Below, piece after piece: positions 865 to 62,477 of a DNA stretch of 64,000 bases. Made by a program: the position numbers and the translations under genes. Position 1 is the stretch's first letter, and every line of letters starts with the position of its first letter. Source of the stretch: Niallia alba. GTDB taxonomy: Bacteria > Bacillota > Bacilli > Bacillales > Cytobacillaceae. The notes beneath the pieces were generated by a model. It was not told where the DNA came from, ran no database searches, and worked only from the letters and a program-made list of their open reading frames with translations. The stretch lies in assembly GCF_012933555.1 (NCBI RefSeq), contig NZ_JABBPK010000001.1, forward strand, positions 4,008,001-4,072,000, read 5' to 3'.

Positions 865-871
865 CAAAATA

Positions 872-897
872 AAAACCACCAAATATGTATTTGGTGG
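872..897 (-). terminator. ssrA terminator
   Basis: On the leftward strand, CCACCAAATACATATTTGGTGG followed by TTTTT forms a hairpin that starts within the acceptor end of the tmRNA, an economical intrinsic terminator for ssrA. Confidence 0.8.
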
Positions 898-908
898 AGA
901 CGGTGGGA

Positions 909-1186
909 CGTGCAATTCCATGCTTTCGTCATGGCACTGACTATATCTTGAACCTGTAATATTTAGTTAGGTCCTTTGGCGTCTTATACGAAATATAAAT
1001 TTACTTAAAAGTAGCATTTCGTATCCTAGTACTACCAAGTTCCTTGGCAGCCTATAAGTCGATACACGGCTGTTGAATTACTTCACATACCGCTCGGCAT
1101 TGCCTTATCACAATCTATGTGACTTAGGTTTCACCGATAAAGCCAAATTTTCACTTGCATGTTACCACACAAGGCGACTAATATTA
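909..1186 (-). ncRNA. Group I intron in the tmRNA T-loop
   Basis: 278-nt insertion between the last U of exon TTCGAT (1187) and TCCCAC (908). Reading leftward, P1 is exon CGAU paired with intron GUCG (1178-1175), placing the required U-G wobble at the 5' splice site. The intron ends in G (909). The conserved 3' core element AAGATATAGTC is present near 950; its AGUC can pair with GACU upstream (P7). Other stems seen are UCGG/CCGA (P4-like), a long ACCUAAGUCACA hairpin (P5-like), AUACGAAAU/AUUUCGUAU (P8 region) and GUGCCAUG/CAUGG..GCAC at the 3' end (P9-like). No open reading frame for a homing endonuclease is present, so it is a minimal ribozyme. Excision is inferred, not shown. Confidence 0.9.
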
Positions 1187-1404
1187 ATCGAACCCACGTC
1201 CAGAAACATCGGCACTTAAGCTTCTACGAGTGTAGTCAACATATTCGTATTTCGCTTATTCTTCTGCCTGTTGACAGGCGTCCGATAAGCTAGTCTGGTT
1301 GTTCTCTTCCTTCTTCCTCAGACGGTGGAATCCGGCGTAGCCCACTTAAAGTGAGTCCCTGACCCTACCACATGGGCGATGGAGGGAGGAACCGCTAAGC
1401 GCTA

Positions 1405-1440
1405 TTAAGCAGCTAAAGCGAAGTTGTTTTGTTGTTTGCC
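1405..1440 (-). CDS. tmRNA proteolysis-tag reading frame
   Basis: Begins at the resume codon GGC (1440..1438) and encodes GKQQNNFALAA before TAA (1407..1405). With the alanine carried by tmRNA, the tag is AGKQQNNFALAA. The ALAA ending is the usual degradation signal for ClpXP-type proteases, and a clpP gene is in this window. Confidence 0.85.
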   Translation of the reverse strand, partial: GKQQNNFALAA

Positions 1441-1644
1441 AGTTATAGGCTTTGACGTTTTAACGAGGCCGATCCCCTCGACTCGCAACCTAAGCTCGAA
1501 CTATCCCTGTCGAATCCGTAGCGTCCCCATTATAAGGATAAAATCAAGTAATTGTTACATTACAAGATTCTTAGCATTTAAGCTTAACGTTTCGGAAGCT
1601 CTGAAATAGGAGCTTAAAGTTATGTTGTCTTATCGACATAAATT

Positions 1645-1687: not shown

Positions 1688-2155
1688 TTACATTTTTTGC
1701 CTTTCACGTAAAGCACGTTCAATACTGCGATTTGCTTCTTTACGTTTTAAAGTTTCACGCTTGTCATAGTTCTTTTTACCCTTACCTAGACCAATCAAAA
1801 CCTTTGCATAGCCATTTTTAAAATACAGTTTCAGTGGAACTAAAGCATAGCCCGCTTCTTTTGTATCCCCGATTAACTTATTAATTTGTTTGCGATGTAA
1901 TAAAAGCTTTCTTGTTCTTAATGGATCATGATTATAGCGATTTCCTTGTTCATATGGACTAATATGCATACCAAGCAAGAAGACTTCTCCATTAATAATA
2001 CGCGCATACGATTCTTTTAAGTTTACTCTTCCAGCACGAATTGCTTTAATTTCTGTTCCTTGTAGAACAATCCCTGCCTCATAAGTCTCTTCAATAAAAT
2101 AATCATGATTTGCTTTTTTATTTTGAGCAACTAATTTCCCTTCACCTTTTGGCAT
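1688..2155 (-). CDS. smpB: SsrA-binding protein SmpB
   Basis: Binds the tRNA-like part of tmRNA and delivers it to stalled ribosomes. The start is set at ATG 2155, preceded by GGGGGAAG, giving 155 residues from [15 protein letters not shown], which matches the usual SmpB length; a longer in-frame extension upstream has no ribosome site and is not family-like. Family landmarks are [28 protein letters not shown], the [14 protein letters not shown] segment and a basic C-terminal tail rich in Lys/Arg, expected to enter the decoding centre. It sits between rnr and ssrA, both functional partners. Confidence 0.96.
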
Positions 2156-62221: not shown

Positions 62222-62450
62222 AAAAAAAAGCTTTGCCATTCATTAGGGACCAAATAATGGCGGTACCACCCTAATTCAAAGCAAAGCTTTACACTCTTCC
62301 ATGTTAACGGTCTTGAACCGCTGAATCTTTTTAAACAAAGTCTATTCGATACAGAACGAAAAAGGCAGGTTCAACAGGTGAGCCTATAGGTCCTTTCAGC
62401 ATTTAGACCCTCTCTTTAATAGACATTGCTGCATACTATTCCTTTTTATA
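62222..62450 (-). promoter_or_regulatory. T-box riboswitch (proline) upstream of proS
   Basis: Leader RNA that senses uncharged tRNA-Pro. The T-box core AGGGTGGTACCGCC is at 62272..62259. The stem I region (from about 62447) includes AGAGAGGGT and a specifier context GAA-CCT-GCC, where CCT (62369..62367) is a proline codon. The terminator stem AAAGCTTTGC / GCAAAGCTTT is followed by TTTTTTT at 62229..62222. The competing antiterminator would use the T-box core. Confidence 0.92.
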
Positions 62451-62477
62451 GTTTCTTTATTCATTTCTTTGTGAAAA

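Follow-up and report, generated by a model that had tools for sequence, protein, structure and literature searches.

A group I intron in the tmRNA T-loop of Niallia alba and a neighbouring endonuclease gene of its relatives that may spread it

The gene for tmRNA (ssrA) of Niallia alba is interrupted inside its T-loop, which raises the question of what the insert is and how an element that encodes nothing can spread among tmRNA genes. The insert belongs to a known kind of tmRNA intron; the new part is a linked endonuclease gene, found in relatives and lying outside the window (the whole stretch of 64,000 nucleotides analysed here). Our explanation, to which we assign a probability of roughly 0.78, is that the intron was spread in trans by this neighbouring endonuclease, which then decayed.

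Including the intron, ssrA occupies positions 892-1528 of the minus strand (sequence and Rfam RF00023), running from 1528 to 892 over 637 nt, or 359 nt without the insert, exactly as in the original prediction. The sequence reads GGACGTGGGTTCGAT, then 278 nt, then TCCCACCGTCTCCACCA. The 5′ exon (1187-1528, minus strand; sequence and RF00023) ends with ...GTGGGTTCGAT, i.e., after T-loop nucleotide 6 (TTCGAU), and the 3′ exon (892-908, minus strand; from the sequence), which supplies T-stem, acceptor stem and CCA, resumes with TCCCACC. The RF00023 match (1520-1185, minus strand; 162.7 bits, E 2.4e-64) stops at the interrupted T-loop, and ARAGORN called no tmRNA anywhere in the window. The features of a functional tmRNA are all present, namely tRNA-like ends with the acceptor stem GGGGACG/CGTCTCC and its G3.U70 (pairing judged by eye), an encoded CCA, and the tag reading frame GKQQNNFALAA with its stop codon (1405-1440, minus strand; by eye); the same tag is also called by ARAGORN in four intronless loci (L004, L005, L013 and L018). 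A probable intrinsic terminator (871-897, minus strand; by eye), consisting of a CCACCAAAT/ATTTGGTGG hairpin and a T-run, overlaps the CCA end, so that the 5′ arm of the hairpin is the CCA end of the tmRNA; this arrangement is visible in several relatives. The gene for the tmRNA partner, smpB (1688-2152, minus strand; start at 2152 assumed), and the adjacent rnr are open frames in the window. The closest named SmpB matches are those of Bacillus sp. 522_BSPC (98%), a Bacillus sp. MAG (94%) and Niallia nealsonii (92%), which marks the host as a Niallia-like member of the Bacillaceae. The window also contains a T-box leader (62242-62458, minus strand; RF00230, 107.1 bits).

The insert (909-1186, minus strand) is an ORF-less intron of 278 nt with helices P1-P9, P7.1 and P7.2 and a terminal G at 909. 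P1 (1175-1190, minus strand) is formed by exon CGAU (1190-1187) and intron UA pairing with UAGUCG (1180-1175), and places a U.G pair at the 5′ splice site. The original prediction had named this helix (CGAU/GUCG), the conserved element AAGATATAGTC and the terminal G, and all three are there. The 5′ strand of P3, UUUGGC (1142-1147, minus strand), pairs with GCCAAA (980-975), and that of the guanosine-binding helix P7, GACU (1057-1060, minus strand), pairs with AGUC (942-939); the P3/P7 helices are accompanied by P4-P6 and P8-P9, as in a group I core. A search with the Rfam group I intron model had been suggested as a check. RF00028 matches from end to end (1195-918, model positions 1-253) with an E-value of 4.1e-8 in 701 nt and 7.2e-8 in the whole genome, but with 38.1 bits it remains below the gathering score of 50. 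The latter is a curator's cut-off and not a biological feature, and the authors of a recent survey made a separate tmRNA_intron model (PMC11915505).

A structure comprising P1, P2, P3, P4, P5, P6/P6a, P7, P7.1, P7.2, P8, P9.0 and P9 was drawn on the window sequence, and 78 pairs, excluding the non-pairing distal piece of P7.2 and the inner P7.1 pairs, were followed through 17 intron sequences of 272-284 nt. Pairing is retained in 98.4% of the resulting 1326 cells, and both sides change in 19 of the 78 pairs, including two of the six P3 pairs; the compensatory changes sit in P2, P3, P5, P6/P6a, P7.2 and P8. On four of five measures, among them cells paired and both-side changes, none of 500 shuffles reached the observed value, whereas on the fifth (further pair types) 108 of 500 did so; six slid controls fell far below on all measures, with 32-42% pairing and at most four pairs changing on both sides. 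No change is seen among the 17 in P1, P7 or most of P4, which is expected of a working core but is silent on covariation. All P1, P3 and P7 pairs form in 17/17 sequences, as do the U.G at the 5′ splice site and the terminal G. The ssrA insert is thus a group I intron with a fold backed by covariation, and the original assignment, with its borders and P1, stands on the RF00028 match, the drawn structure and the covariation.

By its structure and family, the intron would leave by the usual two guanosine-initiated transesterifications, and until its removal the tmRNA would be without a T-arm, and without charging or EF-Tu binding. Taken jointly, the intron and its self-removal appear almost certain. 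There is one ssrA match in each of 13 genomes of the genus, and because no genome has a further match tmRNA function hinges on splicing, as had been foreseen. A dead intron, leaving ssrA unspliced and tmRNA lost or made without a T-arm, is barely credible: the RF00028 score under the gathering value would fit it, but the core helices pair in every sequence, compensatory changes keep the fold, exons, tag and G3.U70 are intact, and smpB is open.

The proposed comparison of ssrA across relatives was run on the named SmpB loci. The same insert at the same base is present in 14 of the 80 loci kept (status is lacking in three, L069, L073 and L077, which were dropped, as were L182 and L185, from the same genomes as L005 and L004), and the close relatives L089 and L091 have empty sites. 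Eight T-arms that were unparsed or misparsed (L013, L045, L048, L053, L061, L063, L065 and L074) were scored intronless by hand, because ARAGORN found a whole tmRNA there. ARAGORN also shows ssrA to be intronless in Bacillus spizizenii (L023), a relative of Bacillus subtilis 168, which likewise has an intronless gene. Since the insert-bearing loci include separate named assemblies, such as Bacillus sp. 522_BSPC, with the insert at the same base, assembly error, which the original prediction had raised as an alternative, and chance are ruled out as its origin. Within the genus the insert is found in 4 of 13 genomes, one of which (G004) is also in the named set as L003. Of the five Niallia genomes that form the clade of the window, three have it, and it is absent from two close ones, G001 and G002. 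Over a 375-nt stretch upstream these two are 99.5% identical to the window, whereas the DNA past the terminator aligns poorly (29-33%). At T-loop position 6, G001 has U and G002 has C, together with a different T-stem pair. This position matters, since the U.G pair at the splice site requires a U at -1: U is present in 17/17 distinct intron-bearing genes and in 13/68 distinct intronless loci.

For a wider view, genomes were searched with a covariance model of 145 positions (R2). In the family 107 of 193 genomes gave a match, 103 with at least 158 bits and four with at most 41.4 bits; the latter were not counted, and 103/193 are taken as intron-bearing. In 20/20 family loci returned, the end of the intron and the 3′ exon of tmRNA stand at the expected distance. 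Matches were obtained in 13 of 299 genomes of the class (four of them with at most 57 bits) and in 19 of 398 of the phylum (one at 39 bits only), the three samples sharing a few genomes. On single contigs, two R2 matches were seen 2.2 kb apart in one genome (G692:C60; L169, L178) and 1.4 kb apart in another (G668:C37; L172), perhaps duplicated intron-bearing tmRNA ends. The original prediction did not recall a tmRNA intron in a Bacillus relative, but this surprise was unwarranted, because the kind is both known and common in the family: the 2025 survey reports 883 unique tmRNA introns, predominantly from Bacillota and mostly at this T-loop site, in 21 phyla and with a mean length of 293 nt (PMC11915505). 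As in the position-7 class of that survey, insertion is between T-loop nucleotides 6 and 7.

The host tree, built from RNase R and SmpB with 87 rows, requires at least 11 changes of intron presence, six of them forced by well-supported branches. Intron and host distances are correlated (Mantel r 0.61, reached in 0/5000 permutations), and much of the intron's history is therefore vertical: the tmRNA intron is largely inherited. Group I splicing uses guanosine and Mg2+. This use and the dependence of the sole ssrA on splicing are all that favours a regulatory switch, in which GTP or Mg2+ would tune splicing and hence trans-translation; repeated gain and loss is hardly compatible with a needed regulator, and we consider this reading highly improbable. 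As a source of the intron, an integrative element was considered and rejected: inspection by eye of the leading ORFs past ssrA in 12 Niallia genomes, up to seven per genome, showed no obvious tyrosine integrase, and the intron DNA matched no phage record.

What many of the intron-bearing relatives do have is a small gene beside ssrA. The Niallia genome G010 has a LAGLIDADG frame (L088:758-1165:+) on the strand opposite to ssrA, ending 38 nt beyond the 3′ end of the tmRNA. In relatives the gene is about 135 aa long, lies outside ssrA and convergent to it, typically a few dozen bases beyond the 3′ end, and among the loci fetched early it was seen, identically placed and oriented, in many of the intron-bearing ones and in no intronless one. 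All six proteins scanned passed the Pfam cut-off for LAGLIDADG_3 or _1; the best PDB sequence match is I-MsoI (E 3.1e-14), and the AlphaFold model (pLDDT 92.5) gave I-MsoI, I-CreI variants and I-CvuI as best Foldseek matches. These three enzymes are homodimers, encoded as far as is known within introns of rRNA genes. By motif and predicted fold, the gene of the relatives is of the LAGLIDADG homing endonuclease type. Its dN/dS is 0.07-0.25 in the four closest pairs, with a median of 0.16 and a highest value of 0.41 in the 14 of 190 pairs with dS<1.5 (L146, a read-through, and L147, without start, were omitted), and these ratios indicate that the free-standing gene is under purifying selection. 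No plasmid match was obtained for the endonuclease, and phage matches were limited to nine records (30-39% identity), so that a phage or plasmid vector was set aside. A strongly palindromic target centred on the insertion point was likewise rejected, the best being 5/11.

LAGLIDADG proteins can also act as maturases, and the protein could be one that aids folding of the intron and is not, or no longer, a homing endonuclease. The purifying selection would agree with this, and so would the asymmetry of the association described below, the gene occurring almost only with the intron; but many introns with the same core, the window's included, do without the gene, I-MsoI and I-CreI, the closest relatives of solved structure, are endonucleases, and the acidic residues D14 and E16 of the motif are invariant in 18 rows. 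We regard a maturase as quite improbable and retain the endonuclease reading.

The association was assessed with a profile of 18 LAGLIDADG proteins (E<=1e-8) in the same genomes as the intron search. In the family 64/193 genomes matched: a gene or piece is present in 62 of the 103 intron-bearing genomes, compared with 2 of the 90 others (G034 and G153), which hold fragments only. Matches of at least 390 nt number 47, all in intron-bearing genomes and five listed with one internal stop; 15 of the 62 have shorter matches only, and in 41 of the 103 there is no match at this threshold. The strand is opposite to ssrA in 61/61 same-contig cases, 56 of them within 700 nt of the model match; in G177 the endonuclease is on a different contig from ssrA, and in G075, G147, G086 and G097 it is displaced by 6 to 54 kb on the expected strand. 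In the class the endonuclease occurs in 3/13 genomes with an intron match vs 0/286, and in the phylum in 5/19 vs 1/379 (a fragment). Altogether 51 matches of at least 390 nt were found in the bacterial genomes searched, every one in an intron-bearing genome, including four outside the family (G232, G493, G703 and G816). The gene occupies the same place in distant Bacillota. It is as good as certain that relatives carry a LAGLIDADG gene of the I-MsoI/I-CreI type outside ssrA and tied to the intron. Other LAGLIDADG motifs were sought by motif pattern past 32 intron-bearing loci without the gene nearby (29-2225 nt available), and only one was seen, in L170 (G596), a distant member of Bacillota: a double-motif frame of 365 aa on the same strand as the intron-bearing ssrA, 114-1209 nt past the tmRNA 3′ end, apparently another endonuclease type at the same address.

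Fisher's test gives p 4.6e-20 for the family association but ignores relatedness, and it overstates independence because the tree holds only six independent pairs. In the tree pair test (87 rows), these six well-supported pairs divide into 3.6 going the same way, 0 opposite and 2.4 without difference, which is in the right direction but not significant (sign-test p 0.125). This non-significance can be read in favour of a vertically inherited tmRNA intron next to an unrelated homing gene that happens to favour the ssrA 3′ flank, as can the agreement of intron with host distances, the 41 intron-bearing genomes without the gene, and a viral contig with the gene and no intron (see below). That reading nevertheless has to accommodate that 0/51 of the longer matches lie in an intronless bacterial genome, and that scars are found at the same spot in two intronless genomes; we judge it unlikely.

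These scars belong to a series of stages. G010 has an intact gene, in G006 only the N-terminal 52-53 residues are left, and G001 and G002 have an empty ssrA. The intronless G153 and G605, both with the T-loop TTCGATTCC, retain, on the strand opposite to ssrA and immediately beyond it, a C-terminal part of the endonuclease gene, best read as the trace of a lost intron that once had the endonuclease alongside. Such stages of gain, decay and loss are the cycle expected of homing elements. Where relatives have the convergent LAGLIDADG gene (positions 1-891 of the window, no strand assigned), neither gene nor remnant was found, and the profile search detected none in the window's genome (G000) or in G004. 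Consequently nothing is mobilised in the window's genome now, and its intron would be an orphan at the stage of intron kept and endonuclease gone. The original statement that no homing endonuclease is encoded, leaving mobility unclear, therefore holds for the window and its genome but not for the relatives, where 62/103 intron-bearing genomes have a free-standing gene or piece.

The DNA past ssrA contains other material as well. In G004 Tn7-like genes (L190:711-7608) start about 0.35 kb past the intron-bearing ssrA and comprise, by Pfam, two TniQ, a TnsA-like-domain protein with sub-cut-off transposase matches, and TniB; in G086 (L240:823-8077) frames that look similar by eye separate ssrA from the displaced endonuclease. 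In G075 (L237) a 6-kb insert at the corresponding place has frames of 1171, 290 and 198 aa of unknown kind. The DNA flanking the 3′ end of ssrA has the look of a hot spot for insertions.

A clue to the target comes from the viral contig L246, which bears the best of the 80 viral relatives of the endonuclease that were kept (41% identity over residues 1-133). There an apparently intact gene stands just after an intronless tmRNA, on the same strand and not convergent, and its stop codon is followed by 19 nt that repeat the tmRNA 3′ end exactly, from T-loop nucleotide 5 on, so that the insertion boundary is 2 nt from the intron site. Judging from the sequence, it is as if a break near the intron site had been repaired with the gene. 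The same contig contradicts any strict requirement of the intron for immunity, as it combines an apparently intact gene with an intronless tmRNA. A repeat of this type was found in 0/59 intron-bearing loci within 2.3 kb (some loci share a genome), and none of the 80 viral loci kept has a strong intron-model match (best 24.5 bits).

We propose the following course of events. Where ssrA has no intron, the endonuclease would cut the T-loop. Repair templated by the donor would bring in the intron along with the endonuclease gene beside it, after which the site would be blocked by the intron. Linkage, selection, fold, scars and L246 make it likely that this is collaborative homing on a bacterial chromosome, with a free-standing endonuclease mobilising an ORF-less intron; the layout itself, an endonuclease gene standing free beside an ORF-less intron-bearing gene, is found in relatives and not in the window. 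Later the endonuclease would decay and the intron could be lost, a sequel that is likewise likely, every stage being visible in relatives. In its general form, the proposal towards which we lean is that in Bacillota the introns of the tmRNA T-loop make up one half of an ancient homing system with two genes, in which an I-CreI-type enzyme encoded past the tmRNA terminator recognises the T-arm and spreads an intron that encodes nothing, while the intron shields the tmRNA gene of its host.

The flagellin gene may be a second instance of a two-gene homing system. In the window's own genome, but outside the window, a second group I intron (L124:2181-3412, i.e., C1:4182181-4183412; 83.5 bits) lies near the 3′ end of a flagellin gene, and past the stop codon is a LAGLIDADG_2 frame, convergent and seemingly shortened at its N-terminus, with a 300-aa version in G004; the architecture is the same as at ssrA, but the endonuclease family is different. 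Two group I intron matches less than 0.5 kb apart are present in the flagellin gene of three genomes, G006 (L100/L112), G004 (L101/L111/L125) and G008 (L104/L122). The C-terminal coding end of flagellin, or part of it, occurs twice in these three and in G005 (L110), as if the gene end had been regenerated in those Niallia genomes.

If the proposal is true, bacterial chromosomes have a collaborative-homing system of their own, with a target, the T-arm, that is common to nearly all bacteria; a quality-control RNA of nearly all bacteria would be the standing target of a selfish enzyme, and gain, decay and loss could be traced within one genus. Intron and linked endonuclease together form a testable explanation of how tmRNA introns spread. 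If the endonuclease is encoded outside ssrA, an intron need not carry an ORF in order to spread, and the scarcity of tmRNA introns with an internal endonuclease gene would find an explanation: such a gene is reported in 36 of the 883, and of 23 placed 19 are in the P7.1 region and four after P9 (PMC11915505).

The closest known systems are the position-7 tmRNA introns, including the self-splicing 287-nt intron of Clostridium botulinum (PMC2729099), which share with the window the gene, the site, the rules of a -1 U and a terminal G and a similar length, and are mostly ORF-less (PMC11915505; PMC2729099). In the survey, as far as its available text goes, endonuclease genes are described only inside the intron, whereas here they lie outside; the words "downstream", "free-standing" and "freestanding" are absent from its main text. 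A search of the open-access literature by titles and abstract openings yielded, among the matches listed, no report of an endonuclease gene standing free next to an intron of tmRNA. The worked-out case of collaborative homing is F-CphI with the psbA intron of cyanophage S-PM2 (PMC6083498; for the concept see also PMC3984707), where, as in the relatives, a free-standing endonuclease gene stands beside an intron-bearing gene; the F-CphI enzyme acts on the intronless insertion site, as the present candidate would. F-CphI, however, is an Endo VII-type enzyme of a phage (PMC6083498), while the present candidate, a predicted cutter, belongs to the LAGLIDADG proteins and is encoded by bacterial chromosomes across Bacillota. 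I-MsoI, I-CreI and I-CvuI share sequence and fold with the protein of the relatives, and a PDB title names I-CreI a mobile-intron endonuclease; these enzymes belong to mobile group I introns, whereas the gene of the relatives is encoded outside both the intron and the gene that it interrupts.
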